Source: Mycobacterium pseudokansasii (GTDB taxonomy: Bacteria; Actinomycetota; Actinomycetes; Mycobacteriales; Mycobacteriaceae). From it: a stretch of 64,000 nt of DNA. Numbering within the stretch: the first letter of the stretch is position 1; every line of letters begins with the position of its first letter. A program made the position numbers and the translations under genes. Shown in pieces: positions 5,923-27,357 of the stretch. The notes beneath the pieces were generated by a model. The model saw only the letters and a list, made by a program, of their open reading frames with translations, made no database searches and was not told the origin of the DNA. The stretch is taken from the NCBI RefSeq assembly GCF_900566075.1, contig NZ_UPHU01000001.1, positions 682,001 through 746,000 of the forward strand, in the 5' to 3' direction.

Positions 5923-8829
5923 TTAGTGTTCGCCGCTCATCGCCATCAGCCGGTCGGTTTGCGGCTCCTCCCCGGAACCGCTTGGTGCCGACCGGATTCG
6001 GGCCGGACGTGAACGCACCTTCATCGGCCACCAGAACCAGCGGCCCAGCAGCGCGGCGATCGACGGCGTCATGAACGAACGCACGATCAACGTGTCGAAC
6101 AGCAGACCCAGGCCGATAGTGGTACCCACCTGGCCGATCACCCGCAGATCGCTGACGGCCATGGACGCCATGGTGAACGCGAACACCAGCCCGGCGTTGG
6201 TCACGACCTTGCCGGTACCGCCCATCGCGCGAATGATGCCGGTGTTCAGCCCGGCGCCGATTTCCTCCTTGAACCGCGAGACCAGCAGCAGGTTGTAGTC
6301 AGACCCCACGGCCAGCAGAACGATGACGGACATCGCCAGCACCATGTAGTGCAACTCGATGCTGAGGATGTGCTGCCACAACAGCACCGACAGCCCGAAT
6401 GAGGCACCGAGCGAAAGCGCCACCGTGCCCACGATCACCGCCGCCGCGACAAAGGCGCGCGTCAGTATCAGCATGATGATGAAAATCAGGCACAGCGAAG
6501 AGATCCCGGCAATAAGGAGATCCCATTTGGCGCCGTCGGCGATGTCGTAGAAGACGGCCGCCGTCCCGGCCAGATAGATCTTGGCGTCCTCCAGCGGGGT
6601 TCCCTTGAGCGACTCCTCGGCCGCGGTGCGGATCGCATTGATGCTCGCGATTCCCTCGGGTGATTGCGGATCTCCCCGATGCAAGATGATGAAGCGGGCG
6701 GAATGCCCGTCGGGTGACAGGAAGGACTTCATGGCGCGCTGGAAGTCTTTGTTCTTGAAGACCTCGGGCGGCAGATAGAACGAGTCGTCGTTCTTGGCGG
6801 CATCGAACGCCTTCCCCATGGCGTTCGCGTTGTCGCTCATCTCGTTCATCTGGTCGTAGAAGCCGGCCATGGTGCTGTGCATGGTCAGCATCATGATCCG
6901 CATGCTTTCCATGCTGTCGATCATCGGCGGGAAGGTCGCCAGCATCTGCGGCATCAGCCGGTCAATGTTCTTGGTATCGGCCACCAGAGCGCTGAGTTTC
7001 TCGTCGACCTGGTCGAGTCCGTCCAGCGCGTCGAATATCGACCTGAAGGACCAGCAGATGGGAATGTCGTAACAGTGCTTCTCCCAATAGAAGTAGCTAC
7101 GGATCGGGCGCCAGAAGTCGTCGAAGTCCGCGATATGGTCGCGCAGTTCGTTGGTGATCTGCTGCATCTCTTCGGTGTCGCGGACGATGTGGTGAGTATT
7201 CTCGGCGAGCTGCGACATCAGGCTGTACATCTGCTTCATGATCGCGATCGTCTTGGCCATCTCGTCGGCCTGTTTGAGCATGTCGTCGATCCGGTCCCGC
7301 TGATACTTCAGGGTCTGCACCTGGCCGGCGTTTTGCATGCTGATCAGAAACGGGATCGACGTGTGGTCCATCGCCGTTCCGTCGGGCCTGGTGATCGCCT
7401 GCACCCGGGAAATGCCCGGAACCCGGAAGATGCCTTTGGCCAGCCTGTCCAGCACCAGAAAGTCCGCGGGATTGCGCATGTCGTGATCCGACTCGATCAT
7501 CAACACGTCGGGCTTCATCCGGGCCTGCGAGAAATGGCGTTCCGCGGCGGCGAATCCTTCGTTGGCGGGGATGAAGGTGGGCAGGTAGGAACGGTCGTTG
7601 TAGTTGGTGCGGTATCCGGGCAGCGCGAGCAGACCGACCAGGGCGACCGCGCACGTGGCGGCCAGTACCGGCAGCGGCCAGCGCACCACCACGGTGCCGA
7701 CCCGGCGCCAGCCACGAACCTTGAGTAGCCGCTTGGGGTCGAACAGCCCGAATCGGCTGCCGACGGTCAGCACGGCGGGCCCCAGCGTCAGCGCCGCGAA
7801 CACCGCCACCAGCATCCCCACCGCACAGGGGATGCCGAGGGTTTCGAAGTAGGGCATCCGGGCGAACTTGAGGCAGAAGGTCGCGCCGGCGATCGTCAGG
7901 CCCGAGCCCAGGATGACGTGGGCGGTACCGCGGTACATCGTGTAGAAGGCCGTTTCCCGGTCTTCCCCGGCCTGACGGGCCTCCTGGTAGCGCCCGAAGA
8001 TGAAGATCCCGTAGTCGGTGCCGGCGGCAATGGCCAGTGAGGTCAGCAGGCTGACGGCAAAGGTGGACAGTCCGATGGCCCCGCTGTGGCCGAGCAGTGC
8101 GACCACTCCCCGGGCCGCGGTCAATTCCACCCCGACCGTCAGCAACAGCATGATGACGGTGATCGGCGAGCGGTAGACCAGCAGCAACATCACGAAGATC
8201 ACCACGACCGTCGTCACCGTGATCTTGACCATCGACTTGTCGCCGCTGTGGTGCATGTCCGCGACGAGCGCCGCGGCGCCGGTGACGTACGTCGTGACCC
8301 CGGGCGGCGCCGGCGTGTCCGCGACGATCTTGCGCACCGCTTCGACGGACTCGTTGGCCAACGGCTCGCCTTGGTTGCCGGCGAGATTCAGCTGGACGTA
8401 GGTGGCTTTGCCGTCGTTGCTTTGTGCCCCGGCCGCCGTGAGCGGATCGCCCCAGAAGTCTTGGACGCTTTGGACATGCTTGGTATCGGCTCGCAGTTTG
8501 CGGACGAGAACGTCGTAATACTTGTGGGCCGCGTCGTCGAGTGGCTGTTTGCCCTCCAAGACGATCATGGCGACGCTGTCGGTGTTGCCTTCGTTGAACG
8601 CCTGCCCGATGTGCTTCATGGCCTGGTACGACGGCGCTTCCTTGGGGCTCAGCGACACCGAGCGCTCCTGCCCGACTTCTTCCAGCGACGGCACGAAAAC
8701 GCTGAGCGCAACGCAGATCATCAGCCAGCCGAGAATGATCGGCACCGCGAACGCGTGGATGATCCGCGCTATCAACGGCTTTTCGGCGTGGCTGCCGGTG
8801 TCGGGGTCGTTCGCGTACTTGATGGTCAC
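5923..8829 (-). CDS. mmpL4: RND-type lipid/siderophore transporter MmpL4
   Basis: 968 residues, matching MmpL4 (Rv0450c). There is one N-terminal helix at about 26-47. The first MMPL membrane block (about 200-405) has the proton-relay pair D272-Y273, and the second block has D844-Y845. A long periplasmic helical region rich in Met and Gln (about 500-690) fits the coiled-coil domain of MmpL4/5 transporters. With MmpS4, M. tuberculosis MmpL4 exports mycobactin and carboxymycobactin. It overlaps mmpS4 by ATGA at 8826-8829. Confidence 0.94.
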
Positions 8830-16115: not shown

Positions 16116-18131
16116 CTACCGGCCGCCGCCCAGCATCCGGTGCAGGAAGGAGTAACTCAACGCCGACTTGAAGGCCAGCTGCTCGTTGTCGGCCGCGCCG
16201 GCGTGTCCGCCCTCGATGTTCTCGTAGTACCAGACTTGATGGCCCGCGGCCTCCAGGGCGGCGGTCATCTTGCGGGCGTGGCCCGGGTGGACGCGGTCGT
16301 CGCGGGTGGAGGTGGTGATGAGCACCGGCGGGTACTTCCGGTCCGCTGAAATATTTTGGTAAGGCGAGTATTCGGAGATGAATTTCCAGTCGTCGGGGTT
16401 GTCGGGGTCGCCGTATTCCGCCATCCAGGAGGCTCCGGCCAGCAGCAGGTGATAGCGCTTCATGTCCAGCAGCGGCACATCGCAGACCAGCGCGCCGAAC
16501 TTCTCCGGGTACTTGGTCAGCATGATGCCCGTCAGCAGCCCGCCGTTGCTGCCGCCCCGGGCGCCGAGCTGCTCGACCGTGGTGAGTTCTCGTTTCACCA
16601 AATCCGTTGCAACTGAGGCGAAGTCCTCGGCCACCTTGTGCCGGTCAGCGCGCATCGCCTGGGTGTGCCAGCCGGGTCCGTACTCGCCGCCGCCGCGGAT
16701 GTTGGCCAGCACGTGGGTGCCGCCGCGGGCCAGCCACAACCGGCCCAGCACGCCGTCGTATGCGGGTGTCCTGGGCACCTCGAATCCACCGTAGCCGCTG
16801 AGCAGCGTGGGGCCGGGTCCGTCGGTGTCCGCGGGCCGTACGACGAAATACGGAATGGCCGTCCCGTCGTCGGACTCGGTGAAATACTGTGCCACCGTGA
16901 GGTTTTTGGCATCGAAGAAGGCCGGCGCGGACTTGATCGGGGCGAGTTCTCCGTCGTCGGTGCCGCGCAGCAGTCGCGACGGCGTGTCGAATCCGCTGGA
17001 ATCGAGGAAAAATTCGTCACCGTAGCTGTCGGCGGTGACGACGACGGTGTGGGTCGCCGCGGGGATGCCCGACAACGGATCGCGGCGCCAGTCGCCAGGG
17101 GTGGCGATTTCGACGCGGCTGGCTACGTCGGCGAGCGTCACGATCAGCAGCCGATCGCGGGTCCACGTGTACTGATACAGGGCGGTATGTGGGTCCGGCT
17201 CGAATACCACTCGCAATTGCGCTGTGCCGGCAAGGAATTCATCGTAGCGAGCAGCCAGTAGGGAACCCGCGGTATAGGTGGTGGCGCCGACCGCCCAGTC
17301 GGTGCGCAGTTCGATCAGCAGCCACTGGCGGTGCACCGACACGCTGGCGTCGGTGGGTGCATCGATACGGATCAGCTCCGCGCCGCGCAGCTCGTAGACT
17401 TCGTCGTTCCAGAAGTCGAGGGCCCGCGCAATCATGGTGCGCTCGAACCCGGGGGTGCGATCCACCGATGCCATGACGCGGACGTCGGCGCGGGTGCCCT
17501 CGAACACCGTCTCCGCGTCAGCCAGCGGGGTGCCCCGGCGCCATCGCTTGACGACGCGAGGGTAGCCGGATTCGGTGAGCGAATCGGCGCCGAAGTCGGT
17601 GCCCACCAGCACGGTATCCGGTTCTTGCCAGGCGATCTGGGACTTGGCTTGCGGCAGCTCGAATCCGCCGTCGACGAATCGGCGTGTCCGCATGTCGAAT
17701 TCACGCACGACCGATGCATCCGACCCGCCCGGGGAGAGGGCCACCAGGGCGAGGGTGTGGTCGGGTTCGATCACGCCGGCGCCGGCCCACACCCATTTCT
17801 GGCCGTCCACACGACCGAGTTCGTCGACGTCGATCAGGACATCCCATTCCGGGTTGTCGGTGCGGTAGCTGTCCAGCGTGGTGCGCCGCCACAGCCCCCT
17901 CGGGTTGGCGGCGTCGCGCCAGAAGTTGTAGAGGTAGTCGCCGCGCCGCACCACGTAGGGGATTCGGGTGTCGGTGTCGAGCACCTCGAGTGCCTCGGTC
18001 CGCATCCGCTCGAACTGCTCACCGCCGTACTGCGCGAGGGTTCGTTCGTTGCAGGCGCGCACCCAATCAAGTGCTTTCTCATCGGTGACTTCCTCGAGCC
18101 AAAGATAGGGATCAGTCCTCACGAAGGCCAT
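16116..18131 (-). CDS. Prolyl oligopeptidase family serine peptidase (S9A, Rv0457c-like)
   Basis: 671 residues, full length for the S9A family: an N-terminal beta-propeller (about 60-400) and a C-terminal alpha/beta-hydrolase domain. The catalytic triad is visible as Ser528 (GGSNGG), Asp612 (TRDDRV) and His643 (EGGHAG). It would cleave short peptides after proline. There is no signal peptide, so it is probably cytosolic. Corresponds to Rv0457c. The 219 bases between its start and the broken oxidoreductase show no further gene. Confidence 0.92.
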   Translation of the reverse strand: MAFVRTDPYLWLEEVTDEKALDWVRACNERTLAQYGGEQFERMRTEALEVLDTDTRIPYVVRRGDYLYNFWRDAANPRGLWRRTTLDSYRTDNPEWDVLIDVDELGRVDGQKWVWAGAGVIEPDHTLALVALSPGGSDASVVREFDMRTRRFVDGGFELPQAKSQIAWQEPDTVLVGTDFGADSLTESGYPRVVKRWRRGTPLADAETVFEGTRADVRVMASVDRTPGFERTMIARALDFWNDEVYELRGAELIRIDAPTDASVSVHRQWLLIELRTDWAVGATTYTAGSLLAARYDEFLAGTAQLRVVFEPDPHTALYQYTWTRDRLLIVTLADVASRVEIATPGDWRRDPLSGIPAATHTVVVTADSYGDEFFLDSSGFDTPSRLLRGTDDGELAPIKSAPAFFDAKNLTVAQYFTESDDGTAIPYFVVRPADTDGPGPTLLSGYGGFEVPRTPAYDGVLGRLWLARGGTHVLANIRGGGEYGPGWHTQAMRADRHKVAEDFASVATDLVKRELTTVEQLGARGGSNGGLLTGIMLTKYPEKFGALVCDVPLLDMKRYHLLLAGASWMAEYGDPDNPDDWKFISEYSPYQNISADRKYPPVLITTSTRDDRVHPGHARKMTAALEAAGHQVWYYENIEGGHAGAADNEQLAFKSALSYSFLHRMLGGGR

Positions 18132-18350
18132 TGTGATGGCAGCCGCTGGCCCACGATGCAGCGGCCGCGCACCGGTCCCGGGGCCCGCTGTGACGAAGGA
18201 GCAGTGGTTGTGACCGGATCAATGGTCTTCGCCGCCGCATCTCGGCAGCGCAACGGCATGGACCCGAGGCAGGGCCGGCCGTCGACTGTGGCCAGGCCGA
18301 GGGGGAATCGGCTGGGCTTGCGGCTCTTGCGGCCCGGCACCGCAGGTCGA

Positions 18351-19367
18351 TCAAGGGATCAAGACAAGCTTGCCCTGGGCGGCGGCGGTTTCGAGCAACT
18401 CATGTGCGCGACGCGCGTCGGCCAACGGTATGCGTTGTGCGACGACCGGATGAATACTGCCTTCGCGCAGCAGCCGGATTAGCTCGAGCAGATCGTCACG
18501 GAACCAGTCGGGATGTCGGTCGCGCAGCTTGGCGATCCGGTAGGTCATTACGTGCCGCCCAGACTAGGCGAGACAAGCCCGCCAAGCGCGGCAGCGCCCG
18601 CCCAGGCGTAGAACCGAGCCGAACCGCGCCAAGTGCGGCGTCCGCGGGCAACGGTCGAGTAGTGGCCGAAGAGCACCAGCCGACCGCCGCGCCGCAATGC
18701 GCGAAGAGAACGAAACGACAGCGATCCGCCGATTCCATCGAGCGCGACGTCGACCCCGCCGCCGGGCAGCTCGCGCACGCATCGGAGAAAATCCTTGCGG
18801 GTGTAGTCGATCGCCACACCGCCGAGTCGCTCGACACGCGCAGTCCGCGGTCGACGCCGTCCCATAGACGCGGAGGTCTGCAGGCTTGGCGAGCTCGAGT
18901 AATGCGACCCCCACCCGCCCCGCGGCCCCGTGGTAGAGCACGGTTGCCCCGGGCTGAGCTTTCGCCGCGCGATGGATGAGCTGGTAGGCGGTCAGGTACG
19001 GGAAAATCACGCTCACCAGCACGGCCGGGTCGACATCATCGGGCACCTTGATCGCCAATGACTCTGCAACGCAGACGATCTCGGCGTAGCCGCCCCGGAC
19101 CACCAGCGCGGCGACACGGTCTCCGCGCACCAGCGTCGAGCATCCCGGACCGATCCGCTCGACAACGCCGGCGAACTCATACCCAGGGGTAAAGGGCGGC
19201 TTGGGTCCGCCTGGATAGGTCCCGGCCCGAAGCAGCGTATCCGTGAATGACACGCCCGCGGCCAGCACGCGAACGGAAACCTGGCCTGGACCCGGGACGG
19301 GTTGGTCCTCCTCGACGACGCTGAGGACCTCCGGCCCCCCGTAGCGTGGCACCACTACGCGCTTCAT
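18351..19367 (-). pseudogene. Frameshifted quinone oxidoreductase-type MDR gene
   Basis: Three consecutive pieces make one medium-chain reductase of about 335 residues. The first piece starts at the ATG at 19367 (MKRVVVPRYGGPEVL) and runs through the Rossmann region to VYGTAS. The second is in another frame and has DYTRKDF and GGGVDVALDGIGG. The third returns to the first frame (YRIAKLRDRHPDWFRDDL to GKLVLIP). Breaks lie near 18840 and 18550. No zinc-ligand cluster is present, as usual for NADPH:quinone reductases. It follows the zinc alcohol dehydrogenase by 110 bases and may once have been the last gene of the catabolic operon. Confidence 0.75.
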
Positions 19368-19477
19368 CTTCGAACCGTAGCTTTCGCTGATGAGGGTAGG
19401 AAGTGCGCTTCGACCCCAGCGCGTTAACGGCGGCCGGCGCGACCGGGCGCCAGGCGCACAGGCCGACACGCGACGCT

Positions 19478-20569
19478 TCAGCTCCCTTCGGCGGAGAAGG
19501 TGACGATCGGGCGGGGAGAGCGGTGGTCGGCAAGTTCGGTCAGGGCGTCGTTGGCGCCGGCGAGATCGAACCGCCCGCCCGTGAGCTTGTCGAGGCGCAG
19601 CCGCCCCTGGGCGTAGAGGTCGACGAGGATAGCGAAATCGCGCCAGGGGTCGGCGGAGCCGTAGATCGAGCCGGTGAGCGTCTTTTCCATCAGGAAGTGG
19701 AACGGCGACACGGTGATGGTCGCCGCGAAGCCGGGCAGACCGACAACGACGGCGGTACCGCCGGGGTGGACGACGTCGAGCAGCCGTTCCATCGCTTCCG
19801 GTGCGCCGGTCGCTTCGATCGCGACGTCGACGCCGCCGGCCGTGCAGTCGACGATCCGATCGACAGTGTCGATCAGATCCGTGGCGCCGAGCTCGGCGGC
19901 CAGCGCGCGGCGAGCGGCTATCGGGTCGGCCGCGAAAATGCGTCTGGCGCCGGCGATGCGAGCGCCTTGGATGGCCGACAGGCCGACAGCACCGCAACCG
20001 AACACCGCCACGGTGTCACCGGTTTTCACGGCTCCCGCGTGCACCGCGGCGCCAAACCCGGTGGTGACGCCGCAGCCGAGCAGACACAGCCGTTCCAGGT
20101 CGGCGCCGGTCGGCACCGGCACGGCGCACGCCTCGGGCACCACGACCGCCTCGGCCAGGCAGCCCAGACCCATGTAGGCGCCCATGACCGTGTCGGCCCG
20201 AGACAGGTGGCCGCCCGGCGGGCTGGTGGAAAGCCGCTGGCAGAGCTGGGGACGGCCCTCCAGGCAGCGCGGGCAGCGACCACAGCGCGGCGTCCACGAC
20301 AAGACGACGGGCGTGCCGACCGCGATGCCGACGCCCTCCCCGACGCAGTCGACCACGCCGGCGCCCTCATGGCCGAGCACCGCCGGGAAGCGCAGACCCT
20401 CGCCGGTCTGCGCAACGTGCAGATCGCTGCGGCACATGGCGGTGGCGCGCATCCGTACCGCCACCTCGCCGGGACCGGGCCCGGCGAGCTCGAGCTCCTC
20501 GACGCGCAGCGGCGAGCCGGGCGCCTCGATCACCGCGGCCTTCACCACTGCGTTCGGTGCATTCGTCAT
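19478..20569 (-). CDS. Zinc-dependent alcohol dehydrogenase (class III-like MDR)
   Basis: 363 residues with the full zinc alcohol dehydrogenase signature. Catalytic zinc ligands are C46, H67 and the later Cys in LLGCGVTTG. Structural zinc ligands are C96, C99, C102 and C110. The NAD-binding motif is FGCGAVGLS. It should oxidise an alcohol or thiol adduct to the aldehyde with NAD. It overlaps the upstream acyl-CoA dehydrogenase by ATGA at 20566-20569, tying it to the catabolic operon. Similar proteins include glutathione- or mycothiol-dependent formaldehyde dehydrogenases, but the operon argues for a pathway-specific alcohol. Confidence 0.85.
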   Translation of the reverse strand: MTNAPNAVVKAAVIEAPGSPLRVEELELAGPGPGEVAVRMRATAMCRSDLHVAQTGEGLRFPAVLGHEGAGVVDCVGEGVGIAVGTPVVLSWTPRCGRCPRCLEGRPQLCQRLSTSPPGGHLSRADTVMGAYMGLGCLAEAVVVPEACAVPVPTGADLERLCLLGCGVTTGFGAAVHAGAVKTGDTVAVFGCGAVGLSAIQGARIAGARRIFAADPIAARRALAAELGATDLIDTVDRIVDCTAGGVDVAIEATGAPEAMERLLDVVHPGGTAVVVGLPGFAATITVSPFHFLMEKTLTGSIYGSADPWRDFAILVDLYAQGRLRLDKLTGGRFDLAGANDALTELADHRSPRPIVTFSAEGS

Positions 20570-21714
20570 GGGCGAAACCCGCCGGTGAGCGCCTTGGCGA
20601 TCAGCTCGCGCTGCACCTCGTTGGCGCCCTCACCGTATTCGAGGACCTTGCAGTCCCGGTAATAGCGCTGCACTGCGCTGTCGAGCATGAAGCCGTGGGC
20701 GCCGTGCAGATGCATGGCCCGCTCGGCGATCCAGGTGGCCGCCTCGGAGGCCACCAGCTTGGCGATCGAGGCGTCGGTACCGGCCTCGCGGGCGGCCGCC
20801 AGCGTGGTCGCCGCGCCGTAGACCAGGGCGCGGGCGGCGCGCAGCCGGGCTGCCATGTCGGCGAGCGTGAACCGCACGCCCTGCAGCGCGGCCAGTGGCG
20901 CGCCGAACTGCTCGCGGCGCGCCACGTGGGTGATTGCCGCGTCCAGTGCGGCGCCGGCAAGCCCCAGGGCCAGCGCCCCGCCGTAGACGCGGCCGCGGGA
21001 CAGTACCGGCAGGCATTGGCGCAACCCGTCGTCTTCGTCGCCGACGAGCCGGTCGGCGGGCACCGGGCAACCGTCGAAATGCAGCTCGGCCAGCTCCGCG
21101 GGGTGCATGCCGACCTTGGCCATCGGCCGGCGGGTCAGCCCCGGCGTGTCGCCGTCGACGACGAGCACCGACAGGCCCCGTAGCCGGCCCGGTTCGTCAC
21201 CGGTGCGGGCGACGACGAGGATGACGTCGGCGAACGTGCCGTTGGTGATGTAGAGCTTCGACCCGTCGAGCAGGTAGTCACCACCGTCACGGCGCGCCGC
21301 CAGGCGCACCCGGGTGACGTCTGCACCGGCGTCGGGCTCGGCGTAGGCCCACGCCGCGGTGGTCTGCCCGGCCAGCAGCCCAGGCAGGAACCGCCCGCGC
21401 AGCGCGGGCGCGGCGACGTCGGCGAGGGCGGCCGCGGCCAGCGCGGTGTGCACATAGATGCCCAGCGCGACCCCGGCCGAGGCGCGGGCCAGCTCCTCGA
21501 TCAGGATGCAGCGCTCGACCGGGCCGCCACCACAGCCGCCGTCCTCCTCGGCGAACCCGACGCCCAGCCAGCCCAGCCGGGCAAGCCGCGCGAAAAGCTC
21601 GGTGGGGTAACGGTCTTCGATATCCCACCGACCGGCATGCGGCGCGATCTCGGTGGCGGCGAACCGGGCGACCTCGACGCGGAACGCCTCCTGTTCGGCG
21701 CCGAGGTCACTCAC
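20566..21714 (-). CDS. Acyl-CoA dehydrogenase (first of three)
   Basis: 382 residues from a GTG at 21714, chosen because it overlaps the preceding crotonase stop by eight bases; the open frame upstream lies inside that gene. N-terminal helical, central beta (YAEPDAGAD and ITNGTFADV) and C-terminal helical domains are present. The motif EYGEGANEVQRE keeps the catalytic glutamate in the usual YEGTNE position, so this should be an active FAD-dependent alpha,beta-desaturase. Substrate unknown. Confidence 0.86.
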   Translation of the reverse strand: MSDLGAEQEAFRVEVARFAATEIAPHAGRWDIEDRYPTELFARLARLGWLGVGFAEEDGGCGGGPVERCILIEELARASAGVALGIYVHTALAAAALADVAAPALRGRFLPGLLAGQTTAAWAYAEPDAGADVTRVRLAARRDGGDYLLDGSKLYITNGTFADVILVVARTGDEPGRLRGLSVLVVDGDTPGLTRRPMAKVGMHPAELAELHFDGCPVPADRLVGDEDDGLRQCLPVLSRGRVYGGALALGLAGAALDAAITHVARREQFGAPLAALQGVRFTLADMAARLRAARALVYGAATTLAAAREAGTDASIAKLVASEAATWIAERAMHLHGAHGFMLDSAVQRYYRDCKVLEYGEGANEVQRELIAKALTGGFRP

Positions 21715-22483
21715 CGGTGAACTCCGGGCGGCGGCGCTGTTGAAAGGCGGCCACACCCTCGCGGTGGTCGGCGGTCTGCAGGCATTGCACCTGGGCGAAG
21801 ATCTCGAATTCGAACTCGCCGTCCATGTCGACGCCCAGCGAGCGGTGGATTGCCCGCTTGGTCCACGCGTGCGCCACCGGCGCACCCGCGGCCAGCTGCT
21901 CGCTCCACCGCCGCACCTCGTCGGCGAAGTCATCTCGCGGCACAACCCGGTGAACCAAGCCGAGTTGCAGGGCCTCCTCGGCCGTCACCAACCGACCCGT
22001 GAGCATCAGCTCACTGGCCGCGCCCAGGCCCACCAGGCGCGGCAGGAACCATCCCGCCGACATGTCGCAGCCGGCCAGCCCGATCGGTGTGAACGGCGAG
22101 CCGAGGCGGATACCGTCGGCCGCTATCCGCAGATCGCATGCCATCGCCAGGCCTAGGCCGCCACCGACGGTGTCGCCGTGCAGCGCGGCGATGACGGGTT
22201 TGTCCATCGCGACGATCGCGCGGACCGGGTCGAGGTAGCGCCGCACGACCCGTTCCCACTCCTGGGCGTCCCGCTCGAACATCTCGGCCTGGTCGGCCCC
22301 CGCGCAGAACGTCCGACCGGCCCCGGCCAGCACCACGACTCGCGCCGACGATGCCGCGGCCTCGGCGAGGACGTCGACCAGCCGGTCGACCATCGGGATG
22401 GAAAGAGTGTTGAGCCGGTCGGGACGGTTGAGTGTCACGGTGGCCACCGCACCGGTGACGTCGAACTCGACCTCGGTAGTCAT
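21707..22483 (-). CDS. Atypical crotonase (enoyl-CoA hydratase/isomerase family)
   Basis: 258 residues from the ATG at 22483 that overlaps the preceding stop as ATGA. It has the crotonase features TLNRPDRLN, the oxyanion-hole segment FCAGAD and GGGLGLAMACDLR. Both glutamates used by classical hydratases are absent: the first position is Gly (GGGLG) and the second is Phe (SPFTPIG). The chemistry may be isomerisation, decarboxylation or C-C bond hydrolysis rather than hydration (inference). Lies between an alcohol dehydrogenase and an acyl-CoA dehydrogenase in the operon. Confidence 0.84.
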   Translation of the reverse strand: MTTEVEFDVTGAVATVTLNRPDRLNTLSIPMVDRLVDVLAEAAASSARVVVLAGAGRTFCAGADQAEMFERDAQEWERVVRRYLDPVRAIVAMDKPVIAALHGDTVGGGLGLAMACDLRIAADGIRLGSPFTPIGLAGCDMSAGWFLPRLVGLGAASELMLTGRLVTAEEALQLGLVHRVVPRDDFADEVRRWSEQLAAGAPVAHAWTKRAIHRSLGVDMDGEFEFEIFAQVQCLQTADHREGVAAFQQRRRPEFTGE

Positions 22484-23514
22484 CGCGTCCCGTTCTGCGG
22501 TGGGTGCGGCGTGATGACGGTGCGTGCCGGGCACGCCGGCCGGTTGAACACGTCGGGTGCCTCGTCGAGGTCGACGCGGCGGCTCACCGAGCGGGACACG
22601 TCGAGGCGTCCGGCTGCGACGAGCGCGAGGGCGGCGGCGATGTCGGTCCTCGTGGACCCGAACGAGCCGCGCACCGCCAGCTCCATGCCGACGAACCGGA
22701 TGATCGGGGGGAGTCGTGGGCGGTCGTGGCCCACCCCGACGACGACGAGGCGGCCACCGGCGGTCAGGGATTGCAGGGCCAGCTCGACGGTGTCGGCGCG
22801 GCCGACGAACTCGAACGCGGCGTGTGCGCCGCCCGCCAGGGCCCGCAGCTCGCGGCCCGGGTCGGCCACTGCGGCCGGGTCGAGCACGTCGTCGGCCCCG
22901 GCCGCCAGCGCCAGCGACCGCGCCTGCGGGGACGGGTCGGCGGCGACCACCCGGCCGGCGCCCATCAGCCGAGCCAGGGCCACCGCATGCAGCCCGAGGC
23001 CGCCGGTGCCCACTACCACCACCCGCTCGCCCGGCCGCACCGCGCCCACCGAGTCCAGTGCGTGAAACGGCGTGGCGATGGCGTCGGTGGCGATGGCTCC
23101 GATCTCCGGTTCGACCCCGTCGGGCAGCGGCAGCAGGCAGGACGCCGGCGCGGCTAGGTACTCGGCGAACCCGCCGGGACGGGCCATGCCGAATCCCTGC
23201 GGCCGGGTGCAGCGGTTGTCGTGCCCGCTGCGGCAGGCCTCGCAGCGGCCGCACACCACCTGGCCGTAGCAGACCACGCGGTCACCGACCGCGACGCCAT
23301 CAACATCGGGGCTGATCTCGACCACGCATCCCGCCGTCTCGTGGCCCGGGATCGTTCCGGCCGGCACGCCGAGCTCGCCGGCCACCAGATGGTGGTCGGT
23401 GCCGCATACCCCGGCCGCCGCGACCTCGATGACCACCTCGCCGGGGCCGGCGGGGGGATCGGCGACCGTCTCCAGCTTGACCACGCCCGGTTCCCGGAAC
23501 ACCACTGCTCTCAT
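22480..23514 (-). CDS. Zinc-binding alcohol/threonine dehydrogenase-like MDR
   Basis: 344 residues. Catalytic zinc ligands C37 and H58-E59 and structural ligands C88, C91, C94 and C102 are in place. The cofactor motif is VGTGGLGLHA. It resembles sorbitol or threonine dehydrogenase-type MDR enzymes and would oxidise a secondary alcohol. It is coupled by ATGA overlaps to the acyl-CoA dehydrogenase before it (23511-23514) and the crotonase after it, so it is an internal part of the same operon. Confidence 0.85.
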   Translation of the reverse strand: MRAVVFREPGVVKLETVADPPAGPGEVVIEVAAAGVCGTDHHLVAGELGVPAGTIPGHETAGCVVEISPDVDGVAVGDRVVCYGQVVCGRCEACRSGHDNRCTRPQGFGMARPGGFAEYLAAPASCLLPLPDGVEPEIGAIATDAIATPFHALDSVGAVRPGERVVVVGTGGLGLHAVALARLMGAGRVVAADPSPQARSLALAAGADDVLDPAAVADPGRELRALAGGAHAAFEFVGRADTVELALQSLTAGGRLVVVGVGHDRPRLPPIIRFVGMELAVRGSFGSTRTDIAAALALVAAGRLDVSRSVSRRVDLDEAPDVFNRPACPARTVITPHPPQNGTR

Positions 23515-24662
23515 CGCAACCCCAGGTAGTGGCTGACGATATTGCGCTGGATCTGGCTGGTTCCGCCGCCGAGCTCACAGCCGCGGGCCTCGAGGAACCT
23601 ACGCATGAACGGTGAGTCCGCCTGGTAGCCGCGAGCCCCGGCGGTCTGCAGCGCGGCCTCGGTGGCCCGCACCGCGACGTTGTTGGCGACCATCTTCGCC
23701 ATCGACGCCTCCAGCGGGCACGGACCCTCGACGTCGCGCTTGCGGGCGGCGCCGTACACGAGCAGCCGGGCGGCGGCGATCTCCGCGTGAGCGGTGGCCA
23801 GCGGGTGGGCGACGGCCTGAAACTGCCCGATCGGCTTGCTGTACTGGTGGCGGGCGCGGGCATAGGCGACCGCGTCGTCGACCGCGGCCTGTGCGACGCC
23901 GACGGCCTGGGCCGCGTTGGCGAGCCGTTCGGGGTCCATCAGCCGGGCGAGGTTGCGCCATCCTTCGCCCTCGGCGCCGAGCAGCGCGTCGTCACTCACG
24001 ACCACCGAGTCGTAGCCGACGTCGTCGACCGGCAGACCGCGCATCGCGGCGAACTCGCGCCGCTCGAAGGTCAGCCCAGCCACGGGCGGCTCGACGAGGA
24101 ACAGGCTGATGCCGCGGTGCCGCGAGCCGGGGTCGGTCGCGGTGCGGGCCGCGGTGATCAGCACCTCGGCCCGCTCGGCGCCGCTGATGGGACCCTTGCG
24201 CCCGTCGATGCGCCACCCCCCGTCGACCCGGGTCGCGGTCGTCGTCATCGCCGCAAAGTCCGAACCGGCCCCCGGCTCGGACATGGCCAGCGCGAATCGC
24301 ACCGCGCCCGTGGCCACGGCCGGCAGCAGCCGCTCGCGTTGGGCTGGTGAGCCGCAGATCTCCAGCGCGTGCGAGCCGAAGATCGTCGCGGTGATGTACA
24401 ACGTCGCCAGCGAGATCGTCGTCTTGGCGACCTCCTCGACGAACACACACAGGTCGGTCACGGTGCCGGCGCGCCCGCCGTGCTCGACCGGCGCCGGGAT
24501 GCCGCACCAACCCCGCTCGGCGCAGGCCGCCCAGAACTCCTCGGGGTATTCCCGGTCACGCTCGAGCGCGACGACGCGGTCCGGGGGGTAGGCATCATCG
24601 AGCCACTCGCGCACCTCGGCCCGCAGCCGGCGCTGTTCGTCGGTGAGGAAGACGTCGATCAT
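23511..24662 (-). CDS. Acyl-CoA dehydrogenase (second of three)
   Basis: 383 residues with the standard domains, including MSEPGAGSDFAAM and GGGTSQIQRNIVSHYLG. The usual catalytic glutamate position holds Gly, so the base must come from elsewhere (as in isovaleryl-type enzymes) or from a partner subunit. Mycobacteria often pair two acyl-CoA dehydrogenases as heterotetramers for steroid side chains; having three in one operon makes such pairing possible. Preceded by the amidohydrolase after a 10-base gap. Confidence 0.86.
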   Translation of the reverse strand: MIDVFLTDEQRRLRAEVREWLDDAYPPDRVVALERDREYPEEFWAACAERGWCGIPAPVEHGGRAGTVTDLCVFVEEVAKTTISLATLYITATIFGSHALEICGSPAQRERLLPAVATGAVRFALAMSEPGAGSDFAAMTTTATRVDGGWRIDGRKGPISGAERAEVLITAARTATDPGSRHRGISLFLVEPPVAGLTFERREFAAMRGLPVDDVGYDSVVVSDDALLGAEGEGWRNLARLMDPERLANAAQAVGVAQAAVDDAVAYARARHQYSKPIGQFQAVAHPLATAHAEIAAARLLVYGAARKRDVEGPCPLEASMAKMVANNVAVRATEAALQTAGARGYQADSPFMRRFLEARGCELGGGTSQIQRNIVSHYLGLR

Positions 24663-24672
24663 CGAGCCCGCC

Positions 24673-25527
24673 TCAAACAGGGATGCCGAACACTCGGGCG
24701 GCGTTGGCGCGCAGGATCTTTCGGGTCGCGCTGGCAGAGAAGCCGCAGTCGAAGACGTCGTTGACCGTGCGGTCGAACGGCAGCAGCGGGTAGTCGGTGC
24801 CCCAGATCAGCTTGTCCTGACCCCAGCCGCCGGCGAACTCGCGCAGCGACGCCGACCAGCGGCGGGCCGGCCGGGCCGACGTCTCGACATAGACGTTGGG
24901 ATGCTTCCAGGCCAGGATCATCATCTCCTCCTCCCACGGGTTGCCGACGTGGGTGCCCACGATGGTGAGCTCGGGGAAGGTGAGCGCGACCTCGTCGAGG
25001 TAGATGGGCCGCCCACACTCCGAGGGCAGCAGCGGGCCGGTGTGACCGACCTGGATGGCCACCGGGATGCCGTACTCGCAGCAGGCGACGTAGATCGGCC
25101 AGTACATCCGGTCGGTGGGCGGCGGTGCGGTCGTGCGGCCGTCGCCGTACTGGTAGGGCTCGAGGCGCACCGCCCGCATGCCCAGCTCCTCGACGCAGCG
25201 GCGCAGCTCCCGCATGGCCGGCACCGGGTCGCGGATGTCGACGGTGCAGCAGCCGATCAGCCGGTCCGGCGCCTTGGCGACGTAGGCGGCGGTCTCGTCG
25301 TTGTCGACGACCCAGGTGTCGAGGAACTTAAACGACGACGCCACGCCCCACTCGACTCCGGCGGCGTCCATCTCGGCCAGCACCTCGTCGAGGGTGAATC
25401 CCCGCCGAAACCGTTCGGCCACACCGTATTTGGCGAAGATATGCCAGAACGGGTCAGGCCAGCGATCGGCGGCGCCCGGCCCGCAGATCGTCATCCAGGC
25501 GTCGATCGCGCCCACGCGTTCACTCAC
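24673..25527 (-). CDS. Amidohydrolase family 2 protein (PF04909-like)
   Basis: 284 residues from a GTG at 25527 that overlaps the previous stop as GTGA. Sequence typical of the ACMSD-like amidohydrolase family: QVGHTGP, GTHVGNPW and the terminal WGTDYPLLPF aspartate motif. The N-terminal HxH metal-binding motif is missing; the corresponding stretch reads IDAWMTICG. It may therefore be metal-independent or use different ligands. In the operon it could decarboxylate or hydrolyse a ring-derived intermediate (inference). Confidence 0.8.
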   Translation of the reverse strand: MSERVGAIDAWMTICGPGAADRWPDPFWHIFAKYGVAERFRRGFTLDEVLAEMDAAGVEWGVASSFKFLDTWVVDNDETAAYVAKAPDRLIGCCTVDIRDPVPAMRELRRCVEELGMRAVRLEPYQYGDGRTTAPPPTDRMYWPIYVACCEYGIPVAIQVGHTGPLLPSECGRPIYLDEVALTFPELTIVGTHVGNPWEEEMMILAWKHPNVYVETSARPARRWSASLREFAGGWGQDKLIWGTDYPLLPFDRTVNDVFDCGFSASATRKILRANAARVFGIPV

Positions 25528-26699
25528 GACTTCTCCCTTGCTCGGTCGAGTGCGCGGGCGATGAGCTCGCGCATGATCTCCGACGTGCCGGCGCCGACGG
25601 AGAACCCGGCGACGTCGCGGTAGTAGCGGGGCACCGGGGACTCCTCCATCTGGCCGAAGCCGCCGTGCAGCTGCAGCACCTCGGCGGCCACGAATTGGGC
25701 GGCCTCGGCGGCGGCCAGCTTGGCCATCGACACCGCCACCTCGGCGGCCGGGTCGCGGCGATTCAGCAGGTCGGCGGCCTGATAGGTGAGCAGCCGCGTC
25801 GCCTCCAGCCGGGTCGTCATCTGGGCAAACCGGTGCCGCCACGCCTGAAAGTCCCACAGCGCGCGGCCGAAGGCACGACGCGTCCTGGCATAGTCGAGGC
25901 CGATCGTGATCAGGTGCTCCATGGCCCCGACCGCGAACGCGGCGATCACCAGTCGCTCGCCGGCGAAGTGCGACAGGATGTAGCGAAAACCCCACCCCTC
26001 CTCGCCCACCAGGTTCGCGGCCGGGATGCGGCAGTTGTCGAAGAACAGCTCGCCGGTATCCGACGCCCGCGCTCCCAACTTGTCCAGGCGCCGGCCGACC
26101 GAGAACCCCGGCGTGTCGGTCGGGAACACCACCAGCGAAATGCCATGCGGCCCCGGCTTTCCGGTGCGCACGGCCAGGGTGAGGAAGTCGGCCCGGGTGC
26201 CGTTGGAGATGAACGTCTTCTGCCCCGAGATGACGTACTCGTCGCCGTCGCGGCGCGCCCAGGTGGCGATCGAGGCGACATCGGAGCCCGCGCCCGGCTC
26301 GGAGACGCCGATGGCGCCGATCAGCTCGCCGCGGATCGCGGGCGCCAGGTAGGCGGCCTTCAACTCGTCGGACGCCTCGTCGGCGATGGCCGACAGCGCG
26401 AACTCCGACTGGGCCATCAGCCCGACCGCGGTGCCGATCGAGTCGCATTTGGCCAGCTCCTCACACAGCACCACGGTGGCGAAGTAGTCGAGGCCGCTGC
26501 CGCCCCACTGCGGCTCGTACCGCAACCCCAGCAGCTCGGCCTGCGCCGCCCTGACATACAGATCGCGGGGGAAGACGCCGGCCGTCTCCCACTCCTGGGC
26601 GTGGGGCCGCATCTCGCGCGCCACGAAGGCGGCCACCGCGGCGCGGAAGGCGTCGTGGTCGTCGTTCAGGTACGCCGACGGTTGACGCGGATATGTCAT
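25524..26699 (-). CDS. Acyl-CoA dehydrogenase (third, first gene of operon)
   Basis: 391 residues from the ATG at 26699 (an in-frame ATG at 26717 would add six residues and run into the operator). It has YEPQWGGSG, VSEPGAGSDVASI and SVGAGTSEIMRELIAR; the usual catalytic glutamate position is Gly. It is the first gene of the presumed operon, with its start only a few bases from a perfect inverted repeat that a TetR repressor could occupy. Substrate unknown. Confidence 0.86.
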   Translation of the reverse strand: MTYPRQPSAYLNDDHDAFRAAVAAFVAREMRPHAQEWETAGVFPRDLYVRAAQAELLGLRYEPQWGGSGLDYFATVVLCEELAKCDSIGTAVGLMAQSEFALSAIADEASDELKAAYLAPAIRGELIGAIGVSEPGAGSDVASIATWARRDGDEYVISGQKTFISNGTRADFLTLAVRTGKPGPHGISLVVFPTDTPGFSVGRRLDKLGARASDTGELFFDNCRIPAANLVGEEGWGFRYILSHFAGERLVIAAFAVGAMEHLITIGLDYARTRRAFGRALWDFQAWRHRFAQMTTRLEATRLLTYQAADLLNRRDPAAEVAVSMAKLAAAEAAQFVAAEVLQLHGGFGQMEESPVPRYYRDVAGFSVGAGTSEIMRELIARALDRAREKS

Positions 26700-26701
26700 C
26701 G

Positions 26702-26728
26702 ACTGACCAAAATACAAATCTGGTCAGT
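26702..26728. promoter_or_regulatory. Perfect inverted repeat, candidate TetR operator
   Basis: ACTGACCA (26702-26709) and TGGTCAGT (26721-26728) are perfect complements around an 11-base AT-rich centre. The site lies exactly between the divergent acyl-CoA dehydrogenase operon and the TetR gene, three bases from one start and 17 from the other. This is the classic place for a TetR dimer to repress both directions. It does not resemble the KstR or KstR2 motifs as I know them. Confidence 0.75.
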
Positions 26729-26745
26729 ATTCGTCAACCGCTATC

Positions 26746-27357
26746 ATGACGGGCATGGCCCCAGTCGTCGCCGGCCCACCACCGCGCGAGCGTCTGGTGG
26801 CGGCCGCCGAGGAGCAGTTCCGGCGTTTCGGGTATCGCAGGACCACCATCGACGACATCACTCGTCGGGCCGGCACCGGCAAGGGCAGCCTCTACCTGCA
26901 CTTTGACTCCAAGGAATCCGTTTACCTCGCGGTCATCGAAGCCTCCCTCGAACGCTTCGTCGCGCGGGCCACCGCCGCGCTGCACGCCGAGGGCACCGTC
27001 CCCCGCCGGCTCGCCGCCCTGACCCAGGTGACCGCCGAACATTACGGGCACGACGAATTGCTGCGCGCCTCGTTGCTCGGTGACTCGAACCTGGTTGACG
27101 GCCGGCCCGCAGCGCTGGCCGCCGACATCCAGCGCAGCCGCATCAGGGCGGTGCTTACCGAGATCCTCCAGGAAGGCCGCCGCGACGGAACGTTGCGCGC
27201 CGACATTGATCCGGAAACCAGCGCAGCGGTGCTGTTCGAGATGGGATGGGGCGTGGTTCGGGCCGGGATCGAAGAGGCCAGCGGGGTACCCCTCGAAACG
27301 GCCCTGACCACCCTCAACCACATCGTCGGTCGGGGCATCCGCGCCGCACGGCCCTGA
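26746..27357 (+). CDS. TetR-family regulator of the catabolic operon
   Basis: 203 residues from the ATG at 26746 (a second ATG at 26755 would remove three). N-terminal helix-turn-helix at about residues 14-60, with ITRRAGTGKGSLYLHFDSKES. The C-terminal helical domain presumably binds an acyl-CoA intermediate. It is divergent from the eight-gene set with one inverted repeat between them, so it most likely represses that set and itself. No counterpart sits here in M. tuberculosis. Confidence 0.87.
   Translation: MTGMAPVVAGPPPRERLVAAAEEQFRRFGYRRTTIDDITRRAGTGKGSLYLHFDSKESVYLAVIEASLERFVARATAALHAEGTVPRRLAALTQVTAEHYGHDELLRASLLGDSNLVDGRPAALAADIQRSRIRAVLTEILQEGRRDGTLRADIDPETSAAVLFEMGWGVVRAGIEEASGVPLETALTTLNHIVGRGIRAARP

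Follow-up and report, generated by a model that had tools for sequence, protein, structure and literature searches.

A TetR-linked acyl-CoA catabolic operon shared by two mycobacteria and bacteria of other phyla, with a possible role in ring opening

The 64,000-nucleotide stretch of the Mycobacterium pseudokansasii genome analyzed here (the window; contig NZ_UPHU01000001.1, positions 682,001 to 746,000) contains a seven-gene operon at positions 19478-26699 of the reverse strand. The genes are ordered ACAD3-AMH-ACAD2-ADH2-ECH-ACAD1-ADH1 and are divergent from a TetR gene on the forward strand (Table 1). Pfam matches above the cut-off were obtained for all eight intact genes. A first-pass annotation of this DNA had named three acyl-CoA dehydrogenases, a crotonase, two zinc alcohol dehydrogenases, an amidohydrolase, and a TetR regulator, and each was found with Pfam support. 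It had also described packing by short overlaps throughout. The junctions are, in gene order, -4, +10, -4, -4, -8, and -4 bases, so overlaps of 4 or 8 bases are present at five of the six, and one junction is a 10-base gap. The G+C content is 69-75% in each operon gene and in TetR, compared with 65.6 and 66.3% in the two neighbor genes.

Table 1. Features of the operon locus (positions in the window)
Feature	Position	Strand	Evidence or remark
TetR-family regulator	26746..27357	+	PF00440, 57.6 bits
TetR operator TGACCA-N6-TA-N3-TGGTCA (predicted)	26704..26726	-	Conserved palindrome, 4 bp before ACAD3 start codon
ACAD3, acyl-CoA dehydrogenase, Glu at LCAD/IVD catalytic position	25524..26699	-	PF00441/02770/02771
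AMH, Amidohydro_2 TIM-barrel protein, IDAW replacing HxH	24673..25527	-	His162/His193/Asp245 retained
ACAD2, acyl-CoA dehydrogenase, Glu at LCAD/IVD position	23511..24662	-	Pfam and aligned residues
ADH2, zinc alcohol dehydrogenase (MDR)	22480..23514	-	PF08240 and PF00107
ECH, crotonase without both hydratase glutamates, Asp140 at PaaG Asp136 position	21707..22483	-	PF00378, 190.3 bits
ACAD1, acyl-CoA dehydrogenase, Glu at MCAD position	20566..21714	-	Pfam and aligned residues
ADH1, zinc alcohol dehydrogenase (class I/III-like), last gene, accessory	19478..20569	-	PF08240 and PF00107
Disrupted zinc/quinone oxidoreductase relic, seemingly outside the module	about 18351..19367	-	Broken frames; N-terminal piece ADH_N, 61 bits

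The operon was sought by a pattern scan of one genome per species (84,980 species), a design that misses distant relatives and may leave out records near this genome. The scan yielded 19 loci, including one in Mycobacterium ostraviense, with AMH identities of 76-95%. Two further loci were obtained from a phylum search (genome G645, locus L050) and a class search (G856, L095), for a total of 21 outside this genome. The same gene order was found in metagenome-assembled genomes (MAGs) of Acidimicrobiia, Myxococcota/Deltaproteobacteria, and Acidobacteria, where AMH is 76-85% identical. Over the 21 loci the order is TetR and then, on the opposite strand, ACAD3-AMH-[ECHb]-[ACAD2]-ADH2-ECH-ACAD1-[ADH1]. 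ECHb is a second crotonase and is absent from both mycobacterial copies. Presence was scored with identity thresholds set by eye (TetR 50, ACAD3 60, AMH 70, ECHb 50, ACAD2 60, ADH2 50, ECH 60, ACAD1 45, and ADH1 45%). On this basis AMH was present in 21 loci, ACAD3 in 20, TetR in 19 (55-92% identical and divergent from ACAD3; it was missed in L017 and L024, whose contigs begin inside the operon), ADH2 in 18 (57-69%), ECH in 18, ACAD1 in 17, ACAD2 in 15, and ECHb in 12. ADH1 adjoins the operon in only two loci (M. ostraviense, L006, and L012); other relatives at 65-77% identity, one of them from a named Acidimicrobiia, were present in the protein database. In M. ostraviense ADH2 is missing between ACAD2 and ECH, where only a start-like remnant was seen. 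Contig ends cut L007, L014, L016, L017, L022, and L024, so that blanks there are not absences, and ACAD1 is cut in L010 as well. The loci are not all independent: L022 and L024 come from different contigs of a single MAG, and L015 and L016 are 93.5% identical over their shared 3.8 kb. In the MAGs of L008 and L020 some operon genes are split across frames, by assembly errors or decay.

AMH matches (E ≤ 1e-60) were found in 11 of 297 sampled Mycobacterium genomes; at least 95% identity was reached only in this genome and M. ostraviense, and the others were at 47-48%. In the class of G645 the gene was carried by 9 of 296 sampled genomes, and in a phylum-wide sample of 396 genomes only this genome and G645 had AMH at 80% or more. 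The relatives at the same E value numbered 1401 proteins, of which the best 120 were listed. Among these the orthologues group tightly, with identities of 76-91% in the 43 best clusters, 63% in the next, and 61% or less in the rest. In a five-gene tree, both mycobacteria grouped with two Acidimicrobiia MAGs and one Acidobacteria MAG (L008, L010, and L013) with a support of 0.998.

Acquisition of the operon by horizontal transfer is very likely from these comparisons. It was probably gained by a mycobacterial ancestor, or swapped between close mycobacteria, from an Acidimicrobiia-like donor; the direction is inferred, because the five-gene tree was midpoint-rooted. The first-pass annotation had proposed a search for the same gene order in other mycobacteria and Rhodococcus. 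The closest relatives found are in Acidimicrobiia and Myxococcota/Deltaproteobacteria MAGs and not in Rhodococcus. Among plasmid records, none of the 171 matching AMH, Rhodococcus included, reached 60% identity, and neither did any of the 1883 for ACAD3 or the 1728 for ECH. The Rhodococcus and M. branderi plasmid matches were rejected as carriers, their annotated neighborhoods holding no such operon; a further match, in a Streptomyces record, lies in unannotated sequence. A different cluster is present on the M. branderi plasmid pJCM12687 (L056, record 653865-678740), with P450s, crotonases, amidohydrolase-family genes, a zinc dehydrogenase, a thiolase, and an OB-fold protein; it is another mycobacterial amidohydrolase-linked CoA cluster. 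A DNA-level search of relatives with AMH-ACAD3 DNA returned mostly generic dehydrogenase matches.

Selection was assessed from the ratio of nonsynonymous to synonymous substitution rates (dN/dS) between this genome and M. ostraviense. Seven genes could be compared, TetR and six of the operon, and their ratios were 0.097-0.196, with 0.10 for AMH; the two flanking genes gave 0.099 and 0.209. The low values indicate that the operon is maintained. The dS itself was 0.26-0.48 in the operon and TetR genes compared with 0.22-0.24 in the flanks, and this somewhat higher value leaves room for separate exchange. Because the same gene set and order recur across phyla and dN/dS is 0.10-0.20, the arrangement is not due to chance. 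As judged from sequence, the operon is a travelling module, a point that the first-pass annotation had not made, and it is real and probably functional.

A 23-bp palindromic site, TGACCA-N6-TA-N3-TGGTCA, was found with at most two mismatches in all 20 TetR/ACAD3 intergenes and without mismatch in both mycobacteria. Of 200 shuffles of each intergene, 0-2 matched the operator equally well; these intergenes were also the source of the pattern, and the shuffles preserve base composition only. The central TA lies on the strand reading toward ACAD3 in 20 of 20 cases, and the site fits both strands in L013, L015, and L016. TANNNT resembles the actinobacterial -10 box consensus, and this part of the operator may be the -10 box toward ACAD3. 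The regulator thus combines a TetR_N domain with a palindrome in the divergent promoter that is conserved together with the gene, as in TetR proteins acting on their own operator, and TetR control as originally proposed is supported. At one mismatch or less this genome contains a single operator site (reversed-pattern control, one), and a wider TetR regulon in this mycobacterium was rejected on this count. Two (G796 and G775) of 11 operon-bearing genomes had another site at a distance of about 1.7 kb. In G873, where the contig carrying the operon ends short of the intergene, only scattered single-mismatch sites were found. Since the reversed-pattern control gave 0-2 sites per strand and genome, single-mismatch sites elsewhere mean little.

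The catalytic residues were compared among orthologues above the identity thresholds with more than 80% coverage, this genome included. They were placed by the residue numbering and roles of enoyl-CoA hydratase, MCAD, IVD, and LCAD. ACAD3 has Glu248 in 19 of 19 sequences, all of which, as aligned, have Ala where MCAD has its Glu, and it aligns with human LCAD (8w0t and 8w0z, the latter presumably a Glu-to-Gln variant). In ACAD2, Glu245 is conserved in 15/15, with Gly at the MCAD position in the 15 aligned; all 14 aligned ACAD1 sequences have Glu362 at that position. The conserved residues suggest two IVD/LCAD-type dehydrogenases (ACAD3 and ACAD2) and one of MCAD type (ACAD1). In ECH, Gly111, Phe131, and Asp140 are invariant in the 17 aligned sequences. 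PaaG, a ring-epoxide/enoyl-CoA isomerase, is among its nearest solved structures (3hrx and 6sla, the latter presumably an Asp-to-Asn variant). Like PaaG, ECH (17/17) and ECHb (12/12, columns set by its own motif and not by PaaG alignment) have Asp at the Asp136 position and lack the hydratase glutamates. Unlike PaaG, ECH carries an additional residue in the loop that precedes the Asp, and the scores of 173.7 for ECH and 145.4 for ECHb are below the PaaG equivalog cut-off of 345.15.

No other enzyme of the module is as conserved as AMH (76-85% identity outside Mycobacterium). AMH has the TIM-barrel fold of the metal-dependent amidohydrolase superfamily but not the N-terminal HxH. In its relatives Asp-Ala/Gly-Trp occupies the expected place of the metal-binding HxH; among the 120 listed, residue 11 is Trp in 117 (3 gaps) and residue 13 is Ser or Thr in 119 (1 gap). 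This distinguishes them from the closest known proteins, BB4693 (3irs), LigY, ACMSD, and the dihydroxybenzoate decarboxylases. LigY is a C-C hydrolase, and LigI acts without metal.

The first-pass annotation had noted the lack of a CoA ligase and thiolase and proposed that the operon feeds another pathway. Within the window the observation stands, but such genes lie in or beside related operons. In L018 (G775) two operator sites enclose the gene for an AMP-binding CoA ligase, which passes the long-chain fatty-acid ligase model (502.8, cut-off 476). A FA_hydroxylase domain is likewise enclosed by two sites in L010, and in L015 a FA_hydroxylase gene occupies the interval between TetR and ACAD3, as does its orthologue in L016. 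Behind the second operator site of L008 is a metallophosphoesterase gene (7183-8151), a 51% relative of which lies inside a hybrid unit of G709 (L123:2352-3332); the protein has no obvious role in acyl-CoA catabolism. No gene common to all operon flanks was found among 20 flank proteins: LEH, FA_hydroxylase, CoA ligase, and metallophosphoesterase occur in subsets of loci or once only. About 1.8 kb downstream of the operon copy in L011, a gene for a DAPG hydrolase, a PhlG-type C-C hydrolase, was seen (17521-18378).

Four loci without ACAD2 and ECHb (L018, L019, L021, and L050) have a second cluster adjoining the operon (in L018, at its TetR end). It encodes BKACE, two crotonases, a ChsH2-type Zn-ribbon protein, and a thiolase-like protein and, where the stretch extends far enough, also a CaiB-type CoA transferase and a TetR. 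On inspection, both hydratase glutamates are present in ECHy, one of the two crotonases of this cluster. In this genome BKACE has no close counterpart, the best match being 38%. In all four sister loci fetched (L051, L053, L121, and L122), with AMH at 55-59% identity, ACAD3, AMH, the thiolase-like and ChsH2-like proteins, two crotonases, and BKACE form one cluster. AMH is followed there by ECH and ACAD1 (L051 and L053), by TetR (L121), or by the contig end (L122), and the 23-bp operator was not found within three mismatches in any of the four. G709 (L121 and L123) is a hybrid, with operator, TetR, ADH2, ACAD1, and ECH of the window type and the rest of the sister type. The sister form looks like a fuller pathway operon, and the linked and sister clusters supply genes for reactions that this operon lacks.

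The gene set, its order, the conserved operator, purifying selection, and recurrence across phyla can be read directly from the sequences. The favored reading is a self-contained, TetR-controlled module for acyl-CoA oxidation followed by hydrolytic C-C opening, probably of a ring, a reading to which we assign a probability of about 0.5. Without inducer, TetR would sit on the 23-bp operator over the ACAD3 promoter and would be released by an acyl-CoA intermediate. ACAD3 and ACAD2, with their IVD/LCAD-type bases, and ACAD1, with its MCAD-type base, would then desaturate a branched or alicyclic acyl-CoA. ECH, an Asp-type crotonase, might shift or attack the double bond, and ADH2 might oxidize a secondary alcohol to the ketone. 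Hydrolysis of the C-C bond of the resulting β-dicarbonyl by AMH and/or ECH would open the ring, and the open-chain product could enter the ordinary β-oxidation of the host. In some relatives, a CoA ligase, a membrane hydroxylase, and a LEH-type epoxide hydrolase may add entry steps, and BKACE and the thiolase/ChsH2-like proteins exit steps. A ring or branched-chain substrate, as first proposed, remains a reasonable proposal. Of the original interpretation, TetR control and the insertion described below stand; the adjacent relic seems unrelated, and entry and exit genes do occur in relatives.

Several points weigh against hydrolytic ring opening. AMH lacks the usual metal ligands, which makes C-C hydrolysis a guess, and its best structural match, 3irs, is uncharacterized. 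Because ECH and ECHb lack the hydratase glutamates, hydration before ADH2 would here have to come from elsewhere, or ECH acts otherwise. No NCBIfam cut-off was passed by the window proteins among the matches listed, ring-opening enzymes included. M. ostraviense has the rest under purifying selection without ADH2, so either ADH2 is replaceable or the pathway is decaying there. Finally, the sister of the mycobacterial copies differs among single-gene trees, and the five-gene support for the sister is 0.526.

Known alicyclic pathways offer the closest analogies in kind. The thn operon (ThnL, ThnM, ThnN, ThnO, and ThnT) likewise combines acyl-CoA dehydrogenases, several crotonases, and one amidohydrolase-superfamily protein acting on alicyclic CoA thioesters (PMC12016498). 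There, ThnN is considered the strongest candidate still left for the opening of the first naphthalene ring, and BamU is given as its homologue; ThnO and ThnT are treated in PMC11659651. The thn operon differs in having reductases, thiolases, a β-hydroxyacyl-CoA dehydrogenase, a CoA transferase, and MaoC-type hydratases, whereas this operon has zinc alcohol dehydrogenases. The likeness of AMH to ThnN/BamU is drawn from published descriptions. In Geobacter metallireducens, the Dch crotonase (BamR), the Had dehydrogenase (BamQ), and the amidohydrolase BamU are encoded at nearby loci; bamU is Gmet_2147, near dch and had (Gmet_2150/2151), and all are listed as raised on benzoate (PMC1924859). The operon has no benzoyl-CoA reductase gene, and on the Had model TIGR03201 (cut-off 338.65) ADH2 and ADH1 scored only 112.3 and 61.0 bits. 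With regard to a ring hydrolase such as Oah or BadI, ECH and ECHb match 73 and 72 NCBIfam models, with none passed among the best 25 of each. For the bad/ali cyclohexanecarboxyl-CoA pathway, the best scores, both for ACAD3, were 191.4 on TIGR03207 (cut-off 575.35) and 219.1 on NF043006 (cut-off 650). Since the dehydrogenase and alcohol dehydrogenase scores are far below the curated cut-offs, the operon is regarded as analogous to bad, bam, and thn, with no claim of membership.

No paper describing this operon was found in the PMC literature searched, and within that scope the earlier view of an undescribed metabolic system holds. The operon family is apparently undescribed and built from known enzyme families. 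It may, though this is tentative, represent one branch within a large group of CoA-dependent ring-opening operons that has not yet been described. The hallmark of that group would be an HxH-less and perhaps metal-free AMH that acts beside Asp-type crotonases to hydrolyze C-C bonds of cyclic β-dicarbonyl CoA thioesters. A fuller sister form would add BKACE and thiolase/ChsH2-like proteins, the hybrid locus would mix the forms, and the compact TetR-operator form would have crossed phyla to two mycobacteria. An unexplained island in two mycobacteria thereby becomes a testable system in which the operator is defined and the core enzymes are few and have conserved active sites; its environmental relatives give clues to the entry and exit steps that are missing. 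If ring opening is true, the operon would be a tractable model outside anaerobes for the role of ThnN/BamU-type amidohydrolases in alicyclic CoA catabolism.

Catabolism of a linear or methyl-branched acyl-CoA, such as an isoprenoid or lipid tail, is a somewhat unlikely alternative. Here the dehydrogenases would be chain- or branch-selective, the crotonases double-bond isomerases, and the zinc alcohol dehydrogenases enzymes of alcohol entry, with AMH acting on a side product. IVD and LCAD prefer branched chains, which the bases of ACAD3 and ACAD2 fit; ADH1 resembles class I/III alcohol dehydrogenases, and the L018 ligase model is one for long-chain fatty acids. PaaG, also an Asp crotonase, isomerizes a linear enoyl-CoA as well (PMC9493321). 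However, AMH, for all its conservation, is not known to take part in the usual oxidation of branched chains, and BKACE in the sister operons implies a free β-keto acid. Less probable still is catabolism of a terpenoid or steroid fragment, in which a CoA-activated cyclic terpenoid piece would enter after epoxide hydrolysis or hydroxylation. LEH-like proteins with conserved Arg/Asp motifs, as in the LEH catalytic triad, are encoded next to the operon at 4 of the 21 loci (only that of L015 is Pfam-matched) and favor terpenoid or epoxide entry in some hosts. The FA_hydroxylases of L010, L015, and L016, a KshA-type Rieske protein near L023, a P450 near L012, and the ChsH2-like/thiolase-like pairs beside related operons point the same way, but none of the terpenoid accessories is conserved, and no steroid-pathway model was passed among the matches listed. 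A decaying genomic island without present function in the mycobacterium would account for the absence of ECHb from both mycobacteria, the loss of ADH2 in M. ostraviense, and the adjacent relic, but is very improbable given eight intact genes in this genome, operon dN/dS values like those of the flanks (0.10 and 0.21), and a mismatch-free operator in both species.

The broken quinone oxidoreductase reported earlier proved to be a relic with broken frames: one in-frame piece matches ADH_N and a piece in another frame has no Pfam match, the label "quinone" being that of the first-pass annotation. No match to it was found in the M. ostraviense locus, and a piece of it was matched at E ≤ 1e-40 in 5 of 148 sampled Mycobacterium genomes, this genome among them. 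It seems not to be part of the module. No insertion-element repeats were evident at the module edges.

The two neighbor genes, homologues of Rv0457c and Rv0458, presumably have nothing between them in M. tuberculosis. They were divergent within 10 kb in 39 of 78 sampled Mycobacterium genomes; in the remaining 39 a neighbor match was absent at the thresholds used, or the pair was on separate contigs or far apart. Their spacing was less than 200 bp in 25 of the 39 (83 bp in G057), which bears out the insertion originally described. It was about 1 kb in 3, 2.0-2.7 kb in 4, and 4.7-6.5 kb in 5 and was widest in this genome (9.3 kb) and M. ostraviense (7.1 kb). The junction therefore accepts other inserts too and may be a recurrent insertion site. 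The other inserts, of 2.0-6.5 kb, were seen in nine further genomes (G004, G024, G053, G043, G052, G039, G017, G058, and G072). That of G004 (L086, 6.4 kb) contains none of the operon genes except for a 31% zinc-dehydrogenase match; its open reading frames, judged by eye, resemble genes for a monooxygenase, a reductase, a zinc dehydrogenase, and an SDR.

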